Of a stretch of 64,000 nt of DNA, positions 7,673 to 17,660 are shown in pieces. The notes beneath the pieces are model-generated. The model did no database searches and was not told where the DNA came from. It worked only from the letters and a program-made list of their open reading frames with translations. This DNA is from Acidovorax temperans. Its GTDB lineage: Bacteria; Pseudomonadota; Gammaproteobacteria; Burkholderiales; Burkholderiaceae_C. The translations under genes and the position numbers were made by a program. How positions within the stretch are numbered: position 1 is the stretch's first letter; each line of letters opens with the position of its first letter. Location of the stretch: the NCBI RefSeq assembly GCF_006716905.1, contig NZ_VFPV01000003.1, forward strand, positions 310,001 to 374,000, written 5' to 3'.

Positions 7673-9139
7673 ATGCGAGCACCTATGCCCCGTCTGGTCA
7701 AAGACGGCAAATCGGGCATCTGGTTTTTCCGCTGGTCACTGCCCAAGTCGCACCAGCAAAACCTGAACCAAAAAACGCTCTACATCACCTTGCGGACCCG
7801 CGACGCGCGGCTGGCACAATCCCATGCAGCACTGCTGAACCTGCGAGTGGAGGCCATGAAAAAAATCCCCAATCTGAACGAAGACGCCATACGCAAGCTC
7901 CTGGAAATTGACATGGAGCGCGGCATCTTTCGCGCCGACACCCCAGAAGAACAGGAGCGTGGCCTGCAAATTCTGGAAAACCTGGGCCGTCTGCGGGCCA
8001 GCACACCACAGCAGAACAACGCACCCGCTCTGCGCCCCACTCCAGCCATGACCCCAAAAAGCCCCCTTTTTCGGGCCGTGGCCGACGAGCTCATTCGGGA
8101 AATCAGCCTGACGCTGAAAAAAGCCAGCGTGGACAAATACCGCAGCACCTACGACGCTTTCCGCGAACATGCGGGCAACCGTTTCGTGGAAGACATCACC
8201 CGTGCCGAAATCAAGCAATACAAAGACCAGCTCCTGAGCAACGGCATGGTGGCCCACACCATCAACGGGCACTTGGGCCGACTGCACGCCCTGTTTGAAT
8301 TTGCCCTGAAAAACGGCTACATCAAGGGCGAGAACCCCGCTGCCAACCACCTGATCCCGCACTCCAAGAAGGCCATCAAGAGCCGGGACAAGTTCTACGA
8401 CGACGACCTCAAGGCCATCTACAACTGGGAAACCTACGGCCCCATGGCCATCACCCCCGATTATTACTGGGGTCCTTTGGTTTGCCTGTTTTCGGGCATG
8501 CGCATTGAGGAATGCACCTCACTGGAAGTCAAGAACATCAAGACCGACGACGGCGTGGTCCTCATGCACATCAAAGACGCCAAGACCCCGACTGGCATCC
8601 GGTTTGTCCCAGTGCATTCCTTCCTCATCAAACTGGGTTTTCTGGACTACGTGGAAGAAGTGCGCAAGCTGGGGCACGAAGGGCTGTTCTGGTATTTATC
8701 CGATGGGGCCATGGGCAAGCTGACCAACCACAACGGCACCAAGAAGAACCTCTCACGCCGTTTCTCGCAATACCTGAACGATGTGAAGGTCAAAGAGGAC
8801 GACAACTGCTTTCACTCGCTGCGCCACACCACCATTACACGGTTCGTGGCCCGCAAGGTGAACAACAGCACCATCTACAAGCTGTCGGGCCACACCAGCG
8901 ACAACTCCACACATTTTGACTATTTGCATGACCTCCCCATCAAGGCACTGCACGAAGCGGTGGAGGCGCTGGATTTTCACGAACTGCTGAACCTCAACAG
9001 CTTTGACTGGAAACCGTCATTGCAGCAGGTCCTGGCACGCGAGGCCAAGCGTGCGCAAACGGCAGAAAGCAAGCGCCTGCGCGCAGAACGGCTGGCCAGC
9101 AAAGCCATGCCACGCAAGAAGTGGCCGACCAAGTTTTGA
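7673..9139 (+). CDS. int: Tyrosine recombinase (integrase) of element I
   Basis: A 488-residue site-specific recombinase with the full catalytic set in order: Arg277 (SGMRIEEC), His381 and Arg384 (HSLRHT), His407 (SGHT) and Tyr417 (HFDYLHDLP). The N-terminal part (RLVKDGKSGIWFFRWSLP) resembles the short N-terminal domain of non-P4 phage-type integrases, so it is a different lineage from the integrase at 15232. Start ATG 7673 has AGGAG 8 bases upstream. It should catalyse integration and excision at the tRNA-Gly 3' end. No excisionase was recognised nearby. Confidence 0.92.
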   Translation: MRAPMPRLVKDGKSGIWFFRWSLPKSHQQNLNQKTLYITLRTRDARLAQSHAALLNLRVEAMKKIPNLNEDAIRKLLEIDMERGIFRADTPEEQERGLQILENLGRLRASTPQQNNAPALRPTPAMTPKSPLFRAVADELIREISLTLKKASVDKYRSTYDAFREHAGNRFVEDITRAEIKQYKDQLLSNGMVAHTINGHLGRLHALFEFALKNGYIKGENPAANHLIPHSKKAIKSRDKFYDDDLKAIYNWETYGPMAITPDYYWGPLVCLFSGMRIEECTSLEVKNIKTDDGVVLMHIKDAKTPTGIRFVPVHSFLIKLGFLDYVEEVRKLGHEGLFWYLSDGAMGKLTNHNGTKKNLSRRFSQYLNDVKVKEDDNCFHSLRHTTITRFVARKVNNSTIYKLSGHTSDNSTHFDYLHDLPIKALHEAVEALDFHELLNLNSFDWKPSLQQVLAREAKRAQTAESKRLRAERLASKAMPRKKWPTKF

Positions 9140-9175
9140 AGCGAAAATCCGCCTATACCCACGAATAAAAACAAC

Positions 9176-9727
9176 ATGCGGGTGATTTACAGCAACGGCA
9201 CTGAAAGCAACCTTCTGCTGCGATCCCTGCAAAAGGCACTTTGGAAGGATGACACTGGACGCCGTTTGACCAGCCCAAGCATGGGGCCGTTGTTTTCTGA
9301 TGAGACAGAGCCAGAAGACATAGAAACGGGAACCATCTATGTGCTGCGCAGTTTGTCCACGCACCCGTATGTAGCCGAACACCGTGAGCTCATCCACAAA
9401 ATCGGCGTCACTGGTGGAAAGGTGGAAACTCGCATATCTGGTGCGGACAAGGATGCGACCTACCTCTTGGCTGGCGTTGAAGTGGTGGCAACTTACAAGC
9501 TGCACAACATCAACCGGGTGCGCATGGAAAACCTCTTCCATCGGATTTTCAGCAATGCACAGATTGACATCACCATTGATGACCGATTTGGCAATCCAGT
9601 GAAACCAAGGGAATGGTTCCTTGTGCCACTGCAAGTGATTGACGATGCCGTGGAGCGCATCCTTGATGGCTCAATCACCGAATTCGCCTACGACCCCAAG
9701 AAGGCCAGTCTCGTGAGCATTGACTAA
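9176..9727 (+). CDS. GIY-YIG nuclease family protein (T5orf172/MUG113-like)
   Basis: A 183-residue protein. The segment GTIYVLRSLS followed by KIGVTGG, residues about 49-78, matches the paired GIY...YIG-type strands of the T5orf172/MUG113 branch. An Arg (RISGAD) and a later Glu (RMENLFHRIF) sit where the family's catalytic Arg and metal-binding Glu are expected. It starts 36 bases after the integrase stop on the same strand, so the two may be co-transcribed. Role unknown: homing-like nuclease, defence effector, or recombination helper. The family call is fairly firm, the function is not. Confidence 0.7.
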   Translation: MRVIYSNGTESNLLLRSLQKALWKDDTGRRLTSPSMGPLFSDETEPEDIETGTIYVLRSLSTHPYVAEHRELIHKIGVTGGKVETRISGADKDATYLLAGVEVVATYKLHNINRVRMENLFHRIFSNAQIDITIDDRFGNPVKPREWFLVPLQVIDDAVERILDGSITEFAYDPKKASLVSID

Positions 9728-9918
9728 AAGCCAATGGAACCACAGTGGTGGCAGACCCTTTGCCTATCTGTGGTTGTCATTGCAAATCGGTTGGACTGGG
9801 CAAGGCTAGAACCCAGACCAAATGACCATACTTATATTATGGTTATATTAAATAACCCGCAGATAATACTTTTTCACTCGGAGATAATATATTTTTGAGT
9901 TATTTTTGGCATTATATA

Positions 9919-9947
9919 TTGACATTTATTATTCATTTTTATATACT
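9919..9947 (+). promoter_or_regulatory. Sigma-70 promoter for the 57-aa ORF / ardA operon
   Basis: TTGACA at 9919-9924, a 17-base spacer, then TATACT at 9942-9947: a consensus -35 and a near-consensus -10 at ideal spacing within an AT-rich tract. It is the best promoter seen in the window. It would start transcription about 210 bases before the first ORF. Confidence 0.75.
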
Positions 9948-10129
9948 ATTCTCACTTTACAGGCAAACCAACTGATTTTCAGGAAAATACCTACGAAATA
10001 CTAGTCATATATTCTCGCAAGCCATTGGCTTGTCTGTAAGGCGAAGCGAACTCCGATAGGTTTCGGGGGGATAAGAGGTTACAGGCAGTCAAAACAGAAA
10101 AGGCAGCGGGTAATCTCCTTCAAAAAAGT

Positions 10130-10150
10130 CCGACATCAGTCGGCATTTTT
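10130..10150 (+). terminator. Terminator-like hairpin just before the operon's first RBS
   Basis: CCGAC (10130-10134), ATCA loop, GTCGG (10139-10143), then CATTTTT. An A-run precedes it, which extends pairing with the T-run and would make it bidirectional. It sits between promoter 9919 and ORF 10164, so it could act as a transcription attenuator for the antirestriction operon. Alternatively it simply ends incoming transcription. Confidence 0.5.
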
Positions 10151-10163
10151 AGAGGGAGTTAAT

Positions 10164-10337
10164 ATGAAAGGTATTCAATTTGCGCATTTAGGTAAGAAGT
10201 CAGCCATCACCCAAGCGGTCACCATCAGCAGTGTCCGCGCCACAAAGGGTGCTGCAACGGTTTGTCCACTTGCCACTACATCGGGAGCTACCCGTGTTAG
10301 CTCAGGCACTGCCCACATGGAAGGGGGTGCAGCATGA
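10164..10337 (+). CDS. Small hypothetical protein (57 aa) leading the ardA operon
   Basis: ATG 10164 follows AGGGAG by 7 bases. The frame runs 57 codons to TGA 10335-10337, whose bases overlap the ArdA start (ATGA), so the two are translationally coupled. Composition is rich in Ala, Thr, Ser and Gly, starting MKGIQFAHLGKKS, with no membrane segment. No family recognised. It may be a regulatory leader peptide or a small partner of ArdA; the coupling and good ribosome-binding site are the evidence that it is translated. Confidence 0.6.
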   Translation: MKGIQFAHLGKKSAITQAVTISSVRATKGAATVCPLATTSGATRVSSGTAHMEGGAA

Positions 10338-10837
10338 GCAAGGTTTACGTCGGCACATACCGCAAATACAACGAAGGTTCATTAAAGGGCGAGTGGCTAG
10401 ACCTAGCCGACTACGCCGACAAGGACGCTTTTCTGGAGGCGTGCACCGAGTTGCACAGCGATGAGAGCGACCCAGAATTGATGTTCCAAGACTGGGAAGA
10501 CATACCCACCCGATTTATCGGCGAGTCCCACATTGATGAAAAAACATGGGACTGGTTAGAGCTCAGTGAAGACGAGCGCGAAATCGTTGCCATCTATATG
10601 GACGAAGTGGACCAGGACGCCCCTGTTGAAACAGCATTGGAATGCTACGAAGGCGAGCATGACAGTGAAGAGGACTGGGCCAGAGACTTCTGGGACCATA
10701 CAGGCATGGTCAACCAGCTCCCAGAATTTGCCCAGAACTACATTGACTACGAACAGTTCGCCCGTGATTGCAGATTGGGCGGAGACATTACTTTTGTTGA
10801 AAAGGGCCGCAAAGTGCGAGCCTTCCGACGCAACTAG
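10334..10837 (+). CDS. ardA: ArdA-family antirestriction protein
   Basis: A 167-residue, strongly acidic protein. The N-terminal VYVGTYRKYNEGSLKGEWLDLADY and the later EDWARDFWDHTG...NYIDYEQFARD pattern are typical of ArdA, an elongated DNA mimic that binds and inhibits type I restriction-modification enzymes, protecting incoming single-strand-derived DNA after conjugation. Length matches the family (about 165-170). Start ATG 10334 overlaps the 57-aa ORF stop. Its presence supports element I being transferred by mobilization. Expression probably depends on the 9919 promoter. Confidence 0.9.
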   Translation: MSKVYVGTYRKYNEGSLKGEWLDLADYADKDAFLEACTELHSDESDPELMFQDWEDIPTRFIGESHIDEKTWDWLELSEDEREIVAIYMDEVDQDAPVETALECYEGEHDSEEDWARDFWDHTGMVNQLPEFAQNYIDYEQFARDCRLGGDITFVEKGRKVRAFRRN

Positions 10838-10973
10838 AAATTGGCCGATGGGAATGGGTGCCGCATCACTGATGCGGTGTCCTGCCAAAAGCCATGCGTG
10901 TCAACAGTGTAGGTTCACCGTTGCACAAAAAAAAGACCAGCAATCATGCTGGCAAAAAACAAGGAGAAATTTC

Positions 10974-11381
10974 ATGAAGAAGCAAGATACAAAAGAGATG
11001 GCGGTTGCCATTGAAAAGATGAACCAAGACTATAAAAAGCTAGCAAAAAAATATTTGGGTGCTACGGAGATTTCAAACATAGACAGTGAGTTTTTGCCTC
11101 TTAGCTTGCATGAAAAAATGGTCGTTTTGTTCTATAGATTTAAGATTGACTTTCGGGCTACACCCCTTCAATGTCTGCGTATGTTTGTGGGGACAATTTT
11201 GCGAGATGGAGAGGTAACCATACACACATCAAGGATGGCTGTTGGTCATGAATTTCGTTGTTTTTGCGAATTGCTAAGCACCGTTGGAGTGAACTTTTTT
11301 GAATCAGAAGTCAATACTTTTGGACCGTACACCTTTTTGAATATTGAAGATACCGTATTTGCTTTTTTGACAGAGGAATAG
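10974..11381 (+). CDS. Hypothetical protein (135 aa), AT-rich cargo
   Basis: ATG 10974 has AAGGAG 8 bases upstream and the frame runs 135 codons. The N-terminus is Lys-rich (MKKQDTKEMAVAIEKMNQDYKKLAKKY), then comes a mixed region with two Cys-containing stretches (LQCLRMFVG, FRCFCELL). No signal peptide, membrane helix or known domain was recognised. Base composition is distinctly AT-richer than ardA or the mob genes, suggesting separate acquisition. A good intrinsic terminator follows. Such genes beside ardA are often accessory or defence cargo; nothing here proves that. Confidence 0.65.
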   Translation: MKKQDTKEMAVAIEKMNQDYKKLAKKYLGATEISNIDSEFLPLSLHEKMVVLFYRFKIDFRATPLQCLRMFVGTILRDGEVTIHTSRMAVGHEFRCFCELLSTVGVNFFESEVNTFGPYTFLNIEDTVFAFLTEE

Positions 11382-11402
11382 TCCGAACAATGGGTTGAAC
11401 TA

Positions 11403-11437
11403 GGGCAGGTACTTTAAATAGTGGCTGCCTTTTTTTC
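11403..11437 (+). terminator. Intrinsic terminator after the 135-aa gene
   Basis: GGCAG and CTGCC arms around an AT-rich loop are followed by a run of seven T at about 11430-11436. It ends the ardA-side transcription unit. Confidence 0.7.
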
Positions 11438-12395
11438 ATGAAAATTGAGATTGAAAAATATTTTTCACTAGCTCTTGACATCCAGAAATTTTCTGCTTTA
11501 TTGAGAAGTGACAATGTTATGCGTCAGCCAATGTGAACATGAGACCTTCTCTGAACTTGACCTGTAGTGCTCACACGCTCCCGATTCGCATTGTCTAGGG
11601 TGTTCCCCGATGTGGACCGCTTTGGAGCAGAAAGACCGGCAAATCAAACATTAACTGCCTAACAGTCACTCAGTGGCTGTCAGCCGAACCAAAGCAGCAG
11701 CGGATAACAAAGCCCGACCCAATTCGTAAGAATGGGCACCATGCACAACGAAAGCGAGAGGCTTATTGTTCGGACCGCGCATGGGAGTGGACAAGCACTT
11801 GAACCGAACTTGATTGACCCTTGTAGCTGGTCAATCCCGGATAGATGTGGCGCCCACATGAACCCGCGAAAGCCCGAAACCGACTGACCAAAAATCAGTG
11901 GGTAAGGGAAAAACTTTCCCGGAATCGTGTGGGCAAGTTCTGGGCTGTTTCTATCCGAAAAGCCTGATTTAGCGCCGAAGGCACGGAAAAACCAATCCCA
12001 AAAAAGAATAGAACCCAATGCGTAGCAAAGACATGCTTTGCATGGGTCTGGTGAACGATAGTGAACAAAAAAAGGACGGCGGCCACTTTTGCGCAATTTT
12101 CACTCACACGCTGCGTCGTTCAAATTGGTCATCACCACAGCACTGAAATCCACCAGCACCCCACATCTGCATTTCTTACCGCCCGTCCGAAATCTGGCAA
12201 ACGGGGTCTTCAAAACTTGACTTCGCTTTGCAATGCGTTTGAATGAATGCAGGGGGCCGGAAGTCTCAAGCAAGGTTAACCCATCACATGGCTGAACGCC
12301 ACTGATGGTTACTTGATGGGGTTCCCCCATACCCCTTGAAAGCAGCGTGGCGCAGTGCCACGCGCCCCATAAGAAGAAGAACAAAGGAGGCATGA
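11438..12395 (+). other. Non-coding region before mobC, probable oriT area
   Basis: No supported gene in about 960 bases. Several short hairpins occur: ACAGTCACT/AGTGGCTGT near 11662-11680, GCAAAG/CTTTGC near 12024-12040, and GCGTGGC/GCCACGC at 12345-12363. In mobilizable elements the transfer origin usually lies directly upstream of mobC, so the nick site is expected in the last few hundred bases here. I could not identify a known nic sequence. Confidence 0.45.
12345..12363. promoter_or_regulatory. Candidate oriT stem-loop upstream of mobC
   Basis: A perfect 7-bp inverted repeat GCGTGGC (12345-12351) / GCCACGC (12357-12363) with a 5-base loop lies 33 bases before the mobC start. Relaxase recognition sites are typically such hairpins next to the nick site. 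It could equally be a mobC autoregulatory operator. Confidence 0.4.
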
Positions 12396-12791
12396 ATGAG
12401 AGAACCCGTCAAGAAAAAACGACCTGGCCAGTCAGGCAGCGCAGACAGCAGTGAGTTTGTGCGTCAGGACCGCATTGAGGTCCGCGTCAATCACCACGAA
12501 AAAAAGCGTATCACTCAACTCAGCATTGAACGCGGCTTTGAGACCACAGCACAGTATGTGCGCACCCAGGCCATGACGCCAGGTGCAGAGAACCCCAATG
12601 CACAGCGTCAGGCGCAATACGCCTGCATGCACCAGCTCAACCGCATGGGCACCAACATCAATCAGATTGCGCGCCATCTCAATTCTGGCGGCACGCCCGA
12701 TGGTGAAATTTTGTTGGTATTGGTGAAGCTCTTGGAGCATGCAGAAATGCTCTACGAAAAGGCCAACGCACAGCCAGCGGGTGCGCCATGA
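12396..12791 (+). CDS. mobC: MobC-family relaxosome accessory protein
   Basis: A 131-residue protein with an N-terminal basic tail, a ribbon-helix-helix-like part (RIEVRVNHHEKKRITQLS) and the diagnostic C-terminal motif LNRMGTNINQIARHLN (about residues 85-100) of MobC. MobC binds at oriT and helps the relaxase open the strands. AAAGGAGG lies 5 bases before ATG 12396, and its stop overlaps the relaxase start (ATGA at 12788). The pairing mobC-relaxase is the normal order. Confidence 0.88.
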   Translation: MREPVKKKRPGQSGSADSSEFVRQDRIEVRVNHHEKKRITQLSIERGFETTAQYVRTQAMTPGAENPNAQRQAQYACMHQLNRMGTNINQIARHLNSGGTPDGEILLVLVKLLEHAEMLYEKANAQPAGAP

Positions 12792-14170
12792 TTGTGCGAT
12801 TTTTCAAAACTGGCCAGTCCCATGGGGAGGCACCCGTGAACTACCTTTTGCGCTTGCGTGACCATGCGGGAGAACTGCGTGCAGAACAGCCCGAAGTGTT
12901 GGAGGGGAGTCCACGACTGACCATTGACCTTATCAATGGCATTGCACGCCAGCACAAATACGCCAGTGGGTGCCTTGCATTCAGGACCGGCGAGCAACCC
13001 AGCAAAGCAGAGTTACACACCATCATTGACAAGTTCAAGGCCGTGGTGGCGCCGGGTCTTGCACCCGACCAGTTCAACAGCTTGTTTGTGCTGCACCGTG
13101 AGCCACCAGACCCAAAGACTGGGCAGTCAGGTTTTCATGTTCATTTCATCATGCCCATGACCATTCTGGCGGGCACCACAGCCAGTGGCAAGGATATGAC
13201 TGGGCGCAGATGGAACCCGCACCCACCAGGAAAGAAGACGATTGAAACCATGGCGCTGTTTACCAAGATGGTGAACCATGAACATGGCTGGTCACAGGTC
13301 GTTGAAAAGCCGGGGCGTGTCAGCGTAGACAGTTTCTTGCTCAAAGCGGGCAACACCAGCAACGCGGAGAAAGCGGAACTGTTGCGCAAGGAACTGAACA
13401 AGGGTATCCGCAGTGGGCAAATCAACAGCCGTGATGAGCTTTGCAGCCACATGGACCAGTTGCTTGGCCTGACCATCACACGCACTGGCGCCGACTATGT
13501 TTCGGTGAAGTTCCCCGGCGCTGCCAAGGCCGTGCGTCTCAAGGGAGCCATGTTTGAGAGTGCCACGGATTACGCCGCATTGCGTGCAGCGATGGCACAG
13601 AAACAGGGAGGCGAAGTGCTTTCCGTCAGTCAATCCGCGCACACCGCCGAACGATTGGACACCCTGCTTTCAGAGCGTGCCCACAACCTGTCAGGTCACA
13701 GACCTGCCAGCCAACCCATAACCATTACCAAGGAGAAGAAAAATGGAAGAAATGAAAAAGGACCTAATCCACTTGACCGCCGAGGTGCGCAACCTAGCAG
13801 CGGCCATTCAGTATCTGTCACAGCGCACAGCTTGGAGCGAGACGTGTTTCAAGCAGGTGCAAGAAAGTGGGGCCATGCAGATGACGGAGGCAGTGCGCAA
13901 GGTGCTTACCGACCACAAAAAGTTGATGTCCCAAGTCAACATTCTGGCCATGCGTCTCGCGGCCACTCAGGGGGGCAGTGGGGGCAGCTCGGAAGGGGGC
14001 CCCTACCAACCTATGGGCAAACCATCAATGAACAGATAAGGGAACTGGGTATGCAGCTTTTGGAGTGTGAACCTTGGTCAGCACAGGCTGCGGCCATCAT
14101 GGCTCAAATCAATGCGCTGGTTGGTCAGCGGGAGCAGTTGCCCAGAGGGCCAAAATTTGGACGCGGCTGA
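12788..14170 (+). CDS. Relaxase / mobilization nuclease
   Basis: A 460-residue relaxase. Candidate catalytic Tyr19 (PVNYLL) and a metal-binding triad His103 (LHREPP), His117 and His119 (GFHVHFIMP) fit the Tyr plus H...HxH arrangement of VirD2/MobA-type relaxases. It would nick one strand at oriT and pilot it through a helper conjugation apparatus. The C-terminal third (after about residue 310) is low-complexity and overlaps another well-formed gene in the +1 frame. The last 37 residues recur as a remnant at 14746-14859. The MOB class (P-like) is my estimate. Confidence 0.85.
   Translation: MIVRFFKTGQSHGEAPVNYLLRLRDHAGELRAEQPEVLEGSPRLTIDLINGIARQHKYASGCLAFRTGEQPSKAELHTIIDKFKAVVAPGLAPDQFNSLFVLHREPPDPKTGQSGFHVHFIMPMTILAGTTASGKDMTGRRWNPHPPGKKTIETMALFTKMVNHEHGWSQVVEKPGRVSVDSFLLKAGNTSNAEKAELLRKELNKGIRSGQINSRDELCSHMDQLLGLTITRTGADYVSVKFPGAAKAVRLKGAMFESATDYAALRAAMAQKQGGEVLSVSQSAHTAERLDTLLSERAHNLSGHRPASQPITITKEKKNGRNEKGPNPLDRRGAQPSSGHSVSVTAHSLERDVFQAGARKWGHADDGGSAQGAYRPQKVDVPSQHSGHASRGHSGGQWGQLGRGPLPTYGQTINEQIRELGMQLLECEPWSAQAAAIMAQINALVGQREQLPRGPKFGRG
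13743..14039 (+). CDS. Small coiled-coil protein nested inside the relaxase gene (MobB/MbeB-like position)
   Basis: ATG 13743 is preceded by AAGGAG at about 8-9 bases and opens a 98-codon frame wholly inside the relaxase 3' region in a different frame. The product starts MEEMKKDLIHLTAEVRNLAAAIQ and has heptad-like hydrophobic spacing to about residue 75, then a Gly/Ser-rich tail. Several mobilization systems, for example ColE1 mbeB/mbeD and RSF1010 mobB, encode accessory proteins overlapping the relaxase gene. By position it may play that role. No sequence family was recognised. Confidence 0.6.
   Translation: MEEMKKDLIHLTAEVRNLAAAIQYLSQRTAWSETCFKQVQESGAMQMTEAVRKVLTDHKKLMSQVNILAMRLAATQGGSGGSSEGGPYQPMGKPSMNR
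14057..14170 (+). repeat. Relaxase 3' end, direct-repeat copy A
   Basis: These 114 bases encode the final 37 relaxase residues and stop. They match 14746-14859 closely; 32 of 37 encoded residues are identical. The two copies bracket the minus-strand membrane-protein gene. Confidence 0.85.
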
Positions 14171-14191
14171 TGTTTGAATATGAATGCAACT

Positions 14192-14632
14192 TTACAACTT
14201 TACATCGGCTTTCAAAGCGAGCATTGAGTAAGAAAGCACGGGTGAAATCATCGTATACACCCCTAAAGAGAATACGGGAACGAAAATCAATTTAACAATT
14301 GAAGGAAAATCACCAAACAGAGACACCAGCAAAAAAATGAGGGATAAAAAGGTCATAAAAAAAAGATCTCCGAAACCAAAGGGTGCCGAGCAGTATTTCT
14401 TTCCATCCAATTCAAAACAAGGAATGGTTTTGTTGCCAAAACCCATCTTCATAATCCAAACTTTAATTGGCTTGTTTGTCTCAAGTCCTCTTTGAAGGAA
14501 ATTGTCAAGTTTGGTGGGCACCAATACATCTGTAAATATTTTATTGTCAAACTCAATTACGCTGTATCTATGGCCAAGTGGATAGATCTTTGCGTTTCCC
14601 AGCATTTTAAGCACGCCTTCATGTTCACTCAT
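14192..14632 (-). CDS. Hypothetical membrane protein (146 aa), AT-rich cargo
   Basis: Reads leftward from ATG 14632 (MSEHEGVLKMLG), with TTGAGGA just upstream. Residues about 1-85 look soluble and basic-to-neutral, with FELDGKKYCSAPFGFGDL. Two long hydrophobic segments follow (FFMTFLSLIFLLVSLFG and LIFVPVFSLGVYTMISPVL), suggesting a small protein anchored by a C-terminal hairpin. No family recognised. It is AT-rich, antisense to the mob genes and sandwiched between two copies of the relaxase 3' end, so it arrived by recombination or insertion. Immunity, superinfection exclusion or defence roles are possible but unproven. Confidence 0.6.
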   Translation of the reverse strand: MSEHEGVLKMLGNAKIYPLGHRYSVIEFDNKIFTDVLVPTKLDNFLQRGLETNKPIKVWIMKMGFGNKTIPCFELDGKKYCSAPFGFGDLFFMTFLSLIFLLVSLFGDFPSIVKLIFVPVFSLGVYTMISPVLSYSMLALKADVKL

Positions 14633-14745
14633 TATTTTCCTCAAGGTGTGAGAGAGGTTTCACAGGAACCTCGCTCTAAATTTCGGCTGTGAGTAGAACA
14701 TATATTTGGCTAGAAAATATGACGAATTGATGACACGTCTTGGGG

Positions 14746-14859
14746 CTATTGGAGCGTGAGCCGTGGTCAGCACAGGCCGCGGCCGTCATGGCCCAGATAA
14801 ACGCGCTGGTCGGTCAGCGGGAGCAGTTGCCGAAGTATCCGAAGTTTGGACGCGAGTAG
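14746..14859 (+). pseudogene. Relaxase C-terminal remnant, direct-repeat copy B
   Basis: An open stretch reads LLEREPWSAQAAAVMAQINA and continues to TAG at 14857-14859, matching the last 37 residues of the relaxase at 14057-14170 with five differences. No start or upstream relaxase sequence remains. The nucleotide differences are mostly third-position, so the copy comes from a diverged relative rather than a recent duplication. It lies 117 bases from the middle att site. Confidence 0.85.
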
Positions 14860-14975
14860 CGGATACGCGGATATAATGGAACTCACAAATCCAACCCACA
14901 CTTTTTTGCCTATTTTTTAAGCAGCAAAGTATGTAAGTTGTTGTTTTGTATGACTAGCAGGTGTATCGGATTTTT

Positions 14976-14993
14976 TTCCCTTCACCCGCTCCA
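14976..14993 (+). repeat. att direct repeat, copy 2 (junction of elements I and II)
   Basis: Exact copy of the 18-bp tRNA-Gly 3' end. It serves as the right end of element I and left end of element II. Only the tRNA tail is present here, with no acceptor or D-arm sequence upstream, so it is an att site and not a tRNA gene. Confidence 0.92.
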
Positions 14994-15007
14994 CTGCATC
15001 ATTCTGC

Positions 15008-15136
15008 GGACTTCCGCAGAAGTCCAAGAGAGTCTGCAAGTCGTTGCCACACAAGGACTTTTCCTCTCTTTGACGTTCTGCCGCGGTCCACTGCGATCCA
15101 TCTACAGCCGGGACTTTTAAGTCCACAAACAAGTCC
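15008..15136. repeat. Cluster of six GGACTT/AAGTCC hexamers upstream of the P4-type integrase
   Basis: GGACTT occurs at 15008, 15055 and 15111; its complement AAGTCC at 15020, 15119 and 15131 (start positions). Two pairs are arranged as inverted repeats (15008/15020 and 15111/15119). The cluster lies between the att core and the integrase start, where arm-type integrase or excisionase sites are expected. Confidence 0.6.
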
Positions 15137-15231
15137 ATTTTTGCGGGCGCGGCTGATTCCGGATTGTTGATGGAGGGGCGAGGTCGACGTGACCAGCATC
15201 TGGTTCCTGACTCATGTTCAGGAGCAAGAGC

Positions 15232-16275
15232 ATGGCACTCTCAGACCTGGCCGTTCGACAGGCCAAGGCAACTGGCAAGGCATACACCCTCCCTGACTTG
15301 GATGGCCTCTCCCTGGCCGTCACGGCTGCAGGGGGCAGGACTTGGCACTTCCGCTACTACTGGGCGGGCAAGCAGAAGCGGATGTCGCTCGGCACCTACC
15401 CGGAGGTGACGCTTCGCGAGGCCCGCAGCCTGCGCGACGAAGCGCGCGCCCTGCTGGCCAAAGGCACCAATCCTCGCGTTCACCGCAAGCAGAAGCGCAC
15501 CGCTGTCCGGCTCGCCGACGAAAACACCTTCGAGGCGGTGTATCGCAAGTGGCTCAAGCATCGCGGGCTCAGCCTCAAGGAAGGCCGGCAGACGACCCTT
15601 TCGATACTTCCGCGCATCTTCGACAAGGATGTGCTGCCCGCCTTGGGCAAGCGGTCGGTCTATCAGATCAAGCGTCCCGACCTCTTGGAGGTGATTGCCA
15701 AGATCGAGAAGCGCAGGGCGCTCTCCGTCGCCGAGAAAGTCAGGACGTGGTTCAACCAACTGTTCCGCTACGCGCTGGTGATCGTGCCGGGCCTGGAGCA
15801 GAACCCTGCCTCCGATCTCGATGTGGTGGCGCTGCCGCTGCCACCCGTCAACCACAACCCGTTCCTGCGCATGGCCGAGCTGCCGAAGCTGTTGCAGCGG
15901 CTGCGCAGCTATCGCGGCAGGCGGCAGACCCAGCTCGGGCTGCGGCTGTTGCTGCTGACCGGCGTGCGAACCGGCGAGCTGCGACAGGCGATGCCGGATC
16001 AATTCGATCTGGACCGTGGGTTGTGGATCATCCCGCCCGACGTCGTGAAGCAACTCCAGTTGGATATGCGCAAGAAGCGGCAGCAGCCGAAGGACATCCT
16101 GCCCTACATCGTGCCTTTGTCGATTCAGGCCATGGAGATCGTCCGGCACCTGCTGGATGAGTTCAAGCCGGCCCAGCGCTACCTGTTCCGGCACGACAGC
16201 GACTTGAAGAAGCGCATCAGCGAGAACACGCTCAATGGTGCCCTCAAGCGCATGGGCTATCAGGAACGCCTGCCA
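15232..16275 (+). pseudogene. int: P4-type tyrosine integrase, C-terminally truncated
   Basis: ATG 15232 (MALSDLAVRQAKATGKAYTL) has AGGAG 9 bases upstream. The N-terminal arm-binding domain (DUF4102-like), core-binding domain and the first catalytic Arg246 (TGVRTGELRQA) are present. The match stops near residue 345 at KRMGYQERL, just before the expected HGxR box; the frame then reads unrelated antisense AbiEii sequence and stops at 16374. The second half of the catalytic site (His, Arg, His, Tyr) is missing, so it cannot cut or join DNA. A deletion fused it tail-to-tail with the toxin gene. Confidence 0.88.
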
Positions 16276-16699
16276 GAACCGGCAGCTCGAACTCGACGCC
16301 GAACAGATCGCTGGTCTTGGCACTCAGCGGCCGCCGCTCCACGGGCAGCACGCTGCCTCGGAACACGACGTTGACCTCGATCTTCACCTGGTTGGCGTCG
16401 TTCTCGACGATCAGCTTGGTGTCCCCCAGATCCTTGGCGCGAACCAGGCGTGTCTGCACGCCCAGTGGTGCAACGCGCGTGGCGATGGCGGCCAGCTCCT
16501 GGTTGATGGCTTGCAGCGCTTCGTCGCGCGGCGTCTGCCACGGGAGGTACACCACGTCGATGTCCACCGACAGGCGCGGCATGTCCCGCACGAAGAGGTT
16601 GATGGCCGTGCCGCCCTTCATAGCGAAGATGTCGTTGGCGAACACGTCGGGCGCGACGGCCAGCAGCAGGCGAACGGTGTCCGCGTAGGTCTTATCCAT
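16244..16699 (-). pseudogene. AbiEii/AbiGii-type nucleotidyltransferase toxin, C-terminally truncated
   Basis: Starts ATG 16699 and overlaps the AbiEi stop by 8 bases, the usual antitoxin-toxin arrangement. The nucleotidyltransferase signature is clear: KGGTAINLF at about residues 28-36 and the metal-binding Asp46/Asp48 in LSVDIDV. Normal proteins are near 300 residues; this reads 151 and stops shortly after PVLAGVPD, where the C-terminal helical half should begin. The truncation falls on the same junction that cuts the integrase. The toxin is most likely inactive. Confidence 0.85.
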
Positions 16700-17450
16700 G
16701 AGGTCTCAGGCTCAGCAAGGTGCCGTCATCGAGCCGGCTCATCCAGCGCGTGTTGCTGCCGGTGCGAACCGGGTACTGCTCCAGCAGGGCATCGACATCC
16801 ACGAGGCTGGTCTCGCGCGCCCAGGTGAGGAACAGGCGCACGGCCTTCACGCTGGTGCAGCAGGACAGCAGTTGTCCGAGCAAGTCCTTGCGGGGGGAAC
16901 GCAGTCCATCAAAGAGGTTGCGGGCCTCTTCGAGGCTCTGCTTGACGCCGGCTTCGTACAGCAGTTCCAGAACGGCACGCTCGGAGGCAGCCACCCGCAG
17001 ATCCTCGGGCAGGCCAGGCGGCGTGGTCAGGGTCTTGCTGGCCAGCGCCGTGTCCGGCCAGTCGAACAGGCGGGCGTGGACGTAGCGGGCCGGAAAGCGC
17101 GAGGTGAACCAGGCTGGCAACGCGAAACGACCGTCGCCCCACAGCACCAGCGTCTCCCGGCTGCCCAGGTTGTGCCGCACGCCCTGCAGGGCCAGGGCGC
17201 TCTTGCCTCCGACGTGCAGGCCGGGCACGCGCTGTTGCAGGAACTTCAGCGCACCGTAGACCCCGAACTCATCGTTCGGGAAGGCATAGACGCCATGGGC
17301 CAGGCGCACGAGCCACCCGCCGTCGGCATAGTGGGCGGCGAGCTGGGGCGACACCCCGAACTGGCTCAGGGTGGCAAGGTCGAACGGCGCCCCGCGGGGG
17401 AGTCCCGCCTGCAGCCGCTTGATTACCTGGTGCCTAGAATTTCCATCCAT
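16692..17450 (-). CDS. AbiEi-family type IV antitoxin / transcriptional regulator
   Basis: A 252-residue protein. The N-terminal winged-helix region (VIKRLQAGLPRG...LSQFGVSPQLAAHYADGGWL, residues about 9-50) precedes the AbiEi C-terminal region (GLHVGGKSALALQG). AbiEi proteins bind DNA to repress their own operon and neutralise AbiEii without direct binding. ATG 17450 was chosen because a perfect inverted repeat sits exactly over it and the homology begins there; an upstream in-frame start exists. The gene looks intact while its toxin partner is cut, so it may persist as a solitary regulator. Confidence 0.82.
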   Translation of the reverse strand: MDGNSRHQVIKRLQAGLPRGAPFDLATLSQFGVSPQLAAHYADGGWLVRLAHGVYAFPNDEFGVYGALKFLQQRVPGLHVGGKSALALQGVRHNLGSRETLVLWGDGRFALPAWFTSRFPARYVHARLFDWPDTALASKTLTTPPGLPEDLRVAASERAVLELLYEAGVKQSLEEARNLFDGLRSPRKDLLGQLLSCCTSVKAVRLFLTWARETSLVDVDALLEQYPVRTGSNTRWMSRLDDGTLLSLRPHG

Positions 17451-17468
17451 GCTATAAAAATAGCATGG
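17447..17468. promoter_or_regulatory. Perfect palindromic operator over the AbiEi start codon
   Basis: CCATGCTAT (17447-17455), spacer AAAA, ATAGCATGG (17460-17468): perfect 9-bp inverted arms. The start codon of AbiEi (17448-17450) is inside the left arm. AbiEi-type antitoxins autoregulate through inverted repeats of about this size, so this is a strong operator candidate. Confidence 0.65.
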
Positions 17469-17660
17469 AATCAAATCAGCCTCTAGAGCTATCGCAAGAA
17501 CGTGCAGGGAAAGTAGCATAAAGTTTGATTTATAGTGCAGAATCTAATCGACCTGCGACCGCTCTGCCAGCCGCAACCCGGCCTCCTGATCGCGGTCTAT
17601 GCTGGAGGGCAAGCCCCAACCGGCCGCTCTTGAGGTGAGGCACCACTGAAACCGAGGCAC

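Follow-up and report, generated by a model that had tools for sequence, protein, structure and literature searches.

What might explain why part of a relaxase gene in Acidovorax temperans accumulates substitutions as though another reading frame were being preserved? In the 64,000-nucleotide stretch of DNA analysed here (the window; contig NZ_VFPV01000003.1, positions 310,001 to 374,000), a gene that by its sequence is a relative of the ColE1 relaxase gene mbeA wholly encloses a 98-codon open reading frame (ORF) on the same strand (Table 1). Annotation easily misses fully nested genes; here the comparative data show that one is very probably real and exerts the leading constraint on the DNA of the overlap. 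We consider it likely that it encodes a helical mobilization or exclusion accessory in the slot that MbeD occupies in ColE1, a genuine gene overprinted on the MbeA-like relaxase. The arrangement is known from ColE1; the protein family is an unrecognised one, and its function we infer.

An open reading frame inside the relaxase gene

The first base of the nested ATG falls on position 2 of a relaxase codon, with nested codon positions 1, 2 and 3 corresponding to relaxase positions 2, 3 and 1 (the +1 frame). The ORF starts 955 nt into the 1383-nt relaxase gene, in its 3' half, and follows its likely Shine-Dalgarno sequence at a spacing of 7 nt. A preliminary description of the locus had proposed a 98-codon ORF with an AAGGAG site lying entirely inside the relaxase gene, and these features were borne out. 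Length was dropped as evidence for a gene: among 20000 synonymous-codon permutations of the relaxase, 2804 contained a +1 ORF of 98 codons or more, and the nested stretch itself stayed stop-free in 3949. It is by conservation and substitution phase, not by length, that the nested ORF exceeds chance. The window also has a TTG-started +2 ORF with a Shine-Dalgarno-like site, which runs beyond the relaxase end.

In the model of the product, long helices span residues 2-42 and 44-76 (mean pLDDT 80.3, pTM 0.35, 3 sequences), and the Gly/Ser-rich end is of low confidence. The protein contains no strongly hydrophobic segment (Kyte-Doolittle maximum 0.77). A fold search of the Protein Data Bank (PDB) with the model gave zero matches. 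Read in the relaxase frame, the overlap (residues ~319-418) is rich in Gly, Ser, Arg, His and Gln, and the relaxase model, poor overall (mean pLDDT 48.6), has no secondary structure there up to residue 412.

Conservation in relatives

Relatives were found by scanning genome contigs with six exact peptide patterns, a procedure that misses relatives without those patterns. The scan returned three relaxase relatives, L004 (85% identity in the best segment), L005 (67%) and L006 (50%); L007 is the identical contig to L004 and was counted once. Homologues lacking the nested start, or with stops in that frame, had been named beforehand as the evidence that would speak against a gene. Both close relatives keep the ATG, the Shine-Dalgarno sequence and an open nested frame (141 codons in L004, 102 in L005), and their nested products are 62% and 52% identical, respectively, to that of the window (alignment A5). 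AAGGAG stands 5' of the nested ATG in the window, L004, L005 and L006, and the Thr-Lys-Glu residues that span it are invariant across the four aligned relaxases; because these codons contain the Shine-Dalgarno sequence of the nested gene, their conservation may be owed to it.

The window's own genome holds a further copy of the nested gene, cut at its 5' end, on contig C1 (34% identity, alignment A1), and residues invariant in all four rows of nested proteins include A30, W31, E33, C35, F36, V39, S42, G43 and M47. This locus (C1:519790-520130; L003, L031) comprises the 5'-cut nested gene and a relaxase tail, adjoins the start of an opposite-strand integrase-like ORF and has a transposase-like ORF upstream, both read from their translations. 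In L004, identity to the window falls from 0.95 to 0.52 per 60 nt at about 13868, which places its 3' part in another lineage. At ~5170-5384 of L004 the relaxase ends early and the nested frame continues into the tail. A natural domain swap that moved the tail into the accessory protein was considered and rejected: immediately before the tail, the frame that follows the nested one closes with a motif like the nested C-terminus of L005 and L003, so that both frames seem slipped together by one base relative to the upstream part. The slip looks like a frameshift or an assembly error in the contig, which comes from a metagenome-assembled genome.

Plasmids yielded zero tblastn matches, whether the query was the window's nested protein (E up to 0.01) or that of L005 (E up to 1), and the 3 and 25 stretches that two scans returned from viral contigs included zero confirmed cases. 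Over 369 genomes of the class, profile A1 matched in 3, the own genome and two weak cases (E 0.004 and 0.006) that fall within open frames of 1181 and 435 codons, and the relaxase (E up to 1e-40) matched no genome besides the own. Within the family of G461 there was a match in 1 of 26 genomes, at the same locus, and within the genus in 2 of 47 including the own, the loci of the other genome (L040, L041) being without a called nested ORF.

Substitution phase and the leading frame

Between the window and L005, substitutions at relaxase positions 1/2/3 number 64/48/144 in the 317 upstream codons, 36/17/14 in the first 60 overlap codons, 48/30/25 in the whole overlap (97 codons) and 2/2/21 in the 41 codons of the tail after the nested stop. 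The fastest class is relaxase position 3 upstream, nested position 3 in the overlap and relaxase position 3 again in the tail. The earlier suggestion that the nested frame constrains the DNA is upheld by this flip of phase over the ORF (Fisher test of position 1 against 3, p = 2.1e-7 when the first 60 overlap codons are compared with upstream); the whole overlap differs likewise from the tail (p = 1.5e-6), and for L004 the overlap differs from upstream with p = 2.3e-4. Low complexity had also been ascribed to the relaxase frame in this region, which is true of the overlap but not of the conserved tail, where helices are predicted at residues 413-425 and 432-449, albeit in the poor model. The ratio of position-3 to position-1 substitutions over the overlap is 0.52. 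Four ColE1-type pairs whose nested genes are annotated give 0.75-1.17 over the mbeB/mbeD zone. Six pairs without a called nested ORF, measured from 870 nt to the end, give 1.13-2.20, where 1.13 belongs to a pair at 33% identity; control pairs within each set share members and are not independent.

Which of the two proteins leads? We held one protein fixed and redrew its codons 5000 times over 70 codons, with synonymous divergence matched to that upstream; this null is approximate, using the codon usage of one gene and no tree. When the relaxase protein was the fixed one, 23 of the 5000 draws attained the nested identity observed for window-L005 (0.514), and a single draw did so for L004-L005 (0.586). 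When the nested protein was fixed instead, the observed relaxase identity was attained in 3808 (window-L005), 3361 (L004-L005) and 3907 (window-L004) draws, and therefore needs no further explanation. Identity over the overlap is 0.37 in the relaxase frame, 0.51 in the nested frame and lowest, 0.30, in the +2 frame. By these comparisons the nested protein is what is conserved in the overlap, the relaxase frame behaving as a passenger linker; the nested protein accounts for the relaxase-frame identity, not vice versa, with two of the three pairs informative. A cruder null with fully redrawn codons, which ignores shared ancestry and is not relied on, never attained the nested-frame identity in 5000 draws for any of the three pairs, and attained the relaxase-frame identity in 4, 0 and 2 draws.

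The +1 position in ColE1-type loci

The preliminary description had pointed to the overlapping mobilization genes of ColE1, and the parallel extends to the frame: mbeB (offset 688) and mbeD (offset 1213) both lie in +1 inside mbeA. A passage of PMC9282650 places such mobilization genes inside or overlapping the relaxase gene, and one of PMC6118388 does so for 'some cases'. We surveyed 34 relaxase-bearing loci including the window, having excluded L001-L003, L007 and L028-L031 as duplicates, fragments or weak; six of the relaxase frames are open to the end of the available stretch. In 19 of the 34 (8 of 8 hand-picked plasmids, 11 of 26 of the rest) there is a +1 ORF that has 60 codons or more and a Shine-Dalgarno-like site, and in 2 of 34 there is such an ORF in +2, one of them the TTG ORF of the window. 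Locus L017, from the window's family (minus strand, start 2528 of the reverse complement), has an MbeD nested in +1 (PF04899, 28 bits, cut-off 21.6) at offset 1036, and no larger +1 ORF is called there. The mbeB slot of the window is empty, holding only a 55-codon TTG ORF, along which substitutions are most frequent at position 3 (bins from 13508 and 13628).

L006 (4959-5405) and L021 (2426-2725) have +1 nested ORFs of their own at roughly the position of the window's nested gene; AAAGGAG and GAGGAG precede them, and no similarity to the window's nested family is detectable. Searches of an open-access library listed no paper whose title or opening abstract lines describe the nested-protein family.

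Proposed function and alternatives

The gene would be overprinted in +1 on a variable linker that joins the nuclease region of the ColE1/MbeA-like relaxase to its conserved tail, and the nested protein would probably be translated from the mobC-mobA messenger RNA by internal initiation at AAGGAG-N7-ATG. The product is most likely a small, soluble, helical protein that self-associates, with a job most likely similar to that of MbeD: as an accessory of the relaxosome or of the secretion channel, it would aid mobilization of the element, reduce entry of a related element, or both. A passage of PMC2831885 assigns exclusion activity to ColE1 mbeD. A real gene is indicated by the start, Shine-Dalgarno sequence and frame kept in relatives, the phase flip and the excess nested identity, and an MbeD-like role is suggested by the +1 frame shared with ColE1 mbeB and mbeD, by the nested MbeD of L017 and by the small helical product.

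Could the frame merely be open by chance in a G+C-rich relaxase gene, and untranslated? The permutations described above readily produce ORFs as long, but they leave the phase flip and the excess nested identity in two of three pairs to be explained, and chance is very improbable. The constraint might act on the DNA or RNA itself, through structure, recombination or a binding site, and not on the nested protein; in principle this could lower third-position substitution in the relaxase, and the recombination-like breakpoint of L004 does fall inside the overlap. Such a constraint is scarcely credible, however, given substitutions that are three-periodic in the nested frame (36 at nested third positions, 17 and 14 at the others, in 60 codons) and a +2 frame with the lowest identity. 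The passenger-like behaviour of the relaxase frame in the overlap might mean that the relaxase has decayed and left the nested ORF as the only working gene there; its frame is intact, its upstream substitutions are dominated by position 3 and its tail is strongly conserved, which makes decay highly unlikely. A real gene with some other role, for example in regulation of the mob operon or as unrelated cargo, is possible though rather unlikely. The nested protein has no family match of any kind and no PDB fold match, so that its role is assigned by position, but that position is inside the relaxase gene, downstream of mobC, in the same frame as MbeB and MbeD.

Several observations weigh against a real gene with an MbeD-like role. 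There are only two independent close relatives and one fragment, and one of these relatives, L004, hardly differs from the window before ~13868. With the relaxase fixed, the nested identity of window-L004 (0.743) was reached in 1335 of 5000 draws; the pair is uninformative because it is ~95% identical up to 13868 and ~50% beyond. Compared with L006, the ratio over the zone is 1.38 for the window and 0.96 for L005, values that support no inference, the nested proteins being unalignable. In 15 of the 34 surveyed relaxase loci there is no +1 nested ORF with a Shine-Dalgarno-like site. The Pfam models PF04899 and PF04837 do not match the nested proteins of the window, L003, L004 and L005 (E up to 1), and profile comparison with hhalign gave a probability of 0.6% for MbeD and 0.4% for MbeB. 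A passage of the later PMC11493245 doubts that the effect of mbeD is exclusion proper.

The silence of the two Pfam models agrees with the earlier remark that no ColE1-type family was matched, and the same models recognise ColE1's own proteins (MbeB with 78.9 bits). No Pfam model came close to its cut-off with the nested protein, PHROGs and PADLOC gave no match to it, and NCBIfam gave only a chance-level match of the L005 protein (15 bits, cut-off 375). By sequence, then, the nested protein is neither MbeD nor MbeB. Among five proteins in the MbeD position, PF04899 matches three (ColE1, L036, L017) and fails two (pAsal2 in L034, and L018); because these MobD-position proteins of pAsal2 and L018 also fail the MbeD model, the slot appears to tolerate unrecognisable sequences.

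The host relaxase and its element

Table 1. Features of the nested-gene locus (window coordinates)
Feature	Position	Strand	Evidence
Nested gene, 98 codons, ATG, +1 relative to the relaxase	13743..14039	+	ORF list, relatives, selection tests, fold model
AAGGAG, likely Shine-Dalgarno sequence of the nested gene	13730..13735	+	Within relaxase codons Thr-Lys-Glu
Relaxase gene, ColE1/MbeA relative, host of the nested gene	12788..14170	+	ORF, tblastn, NCBIfam
Conserved relaxase tail 3' of the nested stop, partly helical by prediction	14040..14170	+	Substitutions 2/2/21, model
MobC-like relaxosome protein	12396..12791	+	PF05713, 33.6 bits (cut-off 23.2)
Conserved non-coding block 5' of mobC, candidate oriT	12269..12315 (broader: 12269-12363)	.	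Alignment of window, L004, L005

The assignment of the host gene as a relative of ColE1 MbeA comes from sequence comparison. A tblastn search of plasmids with the relaxase matched 1941 records, every one below 60% identity, with ~25-32% in the best 60 of the 1941; NCBIfam relax_MbeA_E1 scores 63 bits, under its cut-off of 500, and the Pfam Relaxase model is below cut-off. Residues 116-120 read FHVHF, with two histidines, and a passage of PMC3447787 describes MbeA as without two conserved histidines of motif III. A MobC gene upstream, as in the ColE1 superfamily (MOBP5/HEN) to which the host gene may belong, is found at the window locus and overlaps the relaxase start by 4 nt. The conserved block 5' of mobC may be oriT, and includes an imperfect inverted repeat with arms at 12280-12286 and 12314-12320.

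The G+C content of the region 8001-16000 is 0.47-0.55, while nearly every other 2-kb bin has 0.61-0.71 (one has 0.54). The region also encodes ArdA and two tyrosine integrases, and therefore reads as an integrated mobilizable element. Two VirB4/TrbE-type matches above the family cut-off elsewhere in the genome could represent a helper secretion system for it. The relaxase 3' tail recurs as a separate copy at 14740-14853 (84% protein identity over 38 residues); this copy differs from the first mostly at third positions (2/0/10 in 29 codons) and is a remnant of another related relaxase. Further along is an AbiEii/AbiEi-type pair (16244-16699 and 16692-17519, both on the minus strand). The profile match of AbiEii is confined to about the first half of the profile, and the gene overlaps an integrase ORF (15214-16374) at that ORF's end, in what looks like a recombination junction. 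At 7673-9727, a DUF6538-type tyrosine integrase is followed by a T5orf172-domain gene.

Comparison with known systems

The nested-accessory arrangement of ColE1-type plasmids is here extended to an apparently integrated element and to an unrecognised protein family, which suggests that L006 and L021, whose nested ORFs in this position likewise match no family, merit equal scrutiny. One could go further and view the linker of MbeA-like relaxases as a recurrent nursery, in which unrelated helical accessories arose or were swapped in repeatedly at the same +1 slot, behind a Shine-Dalgarno sequence encoded by constrained relaxase codons, with MbeB/MbeD, the window family and the L006 and L021 ORFs as separate inventions; we think this unlikely.

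In RSF1010, mobB overlaps mobA and is a mobilization accessory in another frame of the relaxase gene. Unlike that of RSF1010, the window relaxase matches MbeA-type relaxases, and the likeness to mobB is one of described arrangement. The gene shares with ColE1 MbeB (PF04837) its +1 nesting in the relaxase gene behind a Shine-Dalgarno sequence; however, MbeB is a 172-residue protein with a hydrophobic segment (Kyte-Doolittle maximum 1.85), begins at a more 5' offset and has no sequence similarity to the nested protein. The closest parallel is ColE1 MbeD, or MobD (PF04899), which also lies wholly within an MbeA-type relaxase gene, in +1 and in the 3' half, behind its own Shine-Dalgarno sequence, and is likewise a small helical protein without a membrane segment. 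Unlike MbeD, the nested protein of the window begins earlier (offset 955 nt, compared with 1213 in ColE1 and 1036 in L017), is not preceded by an mbeB and has no sequence similarity to its ColE1 counterpart.
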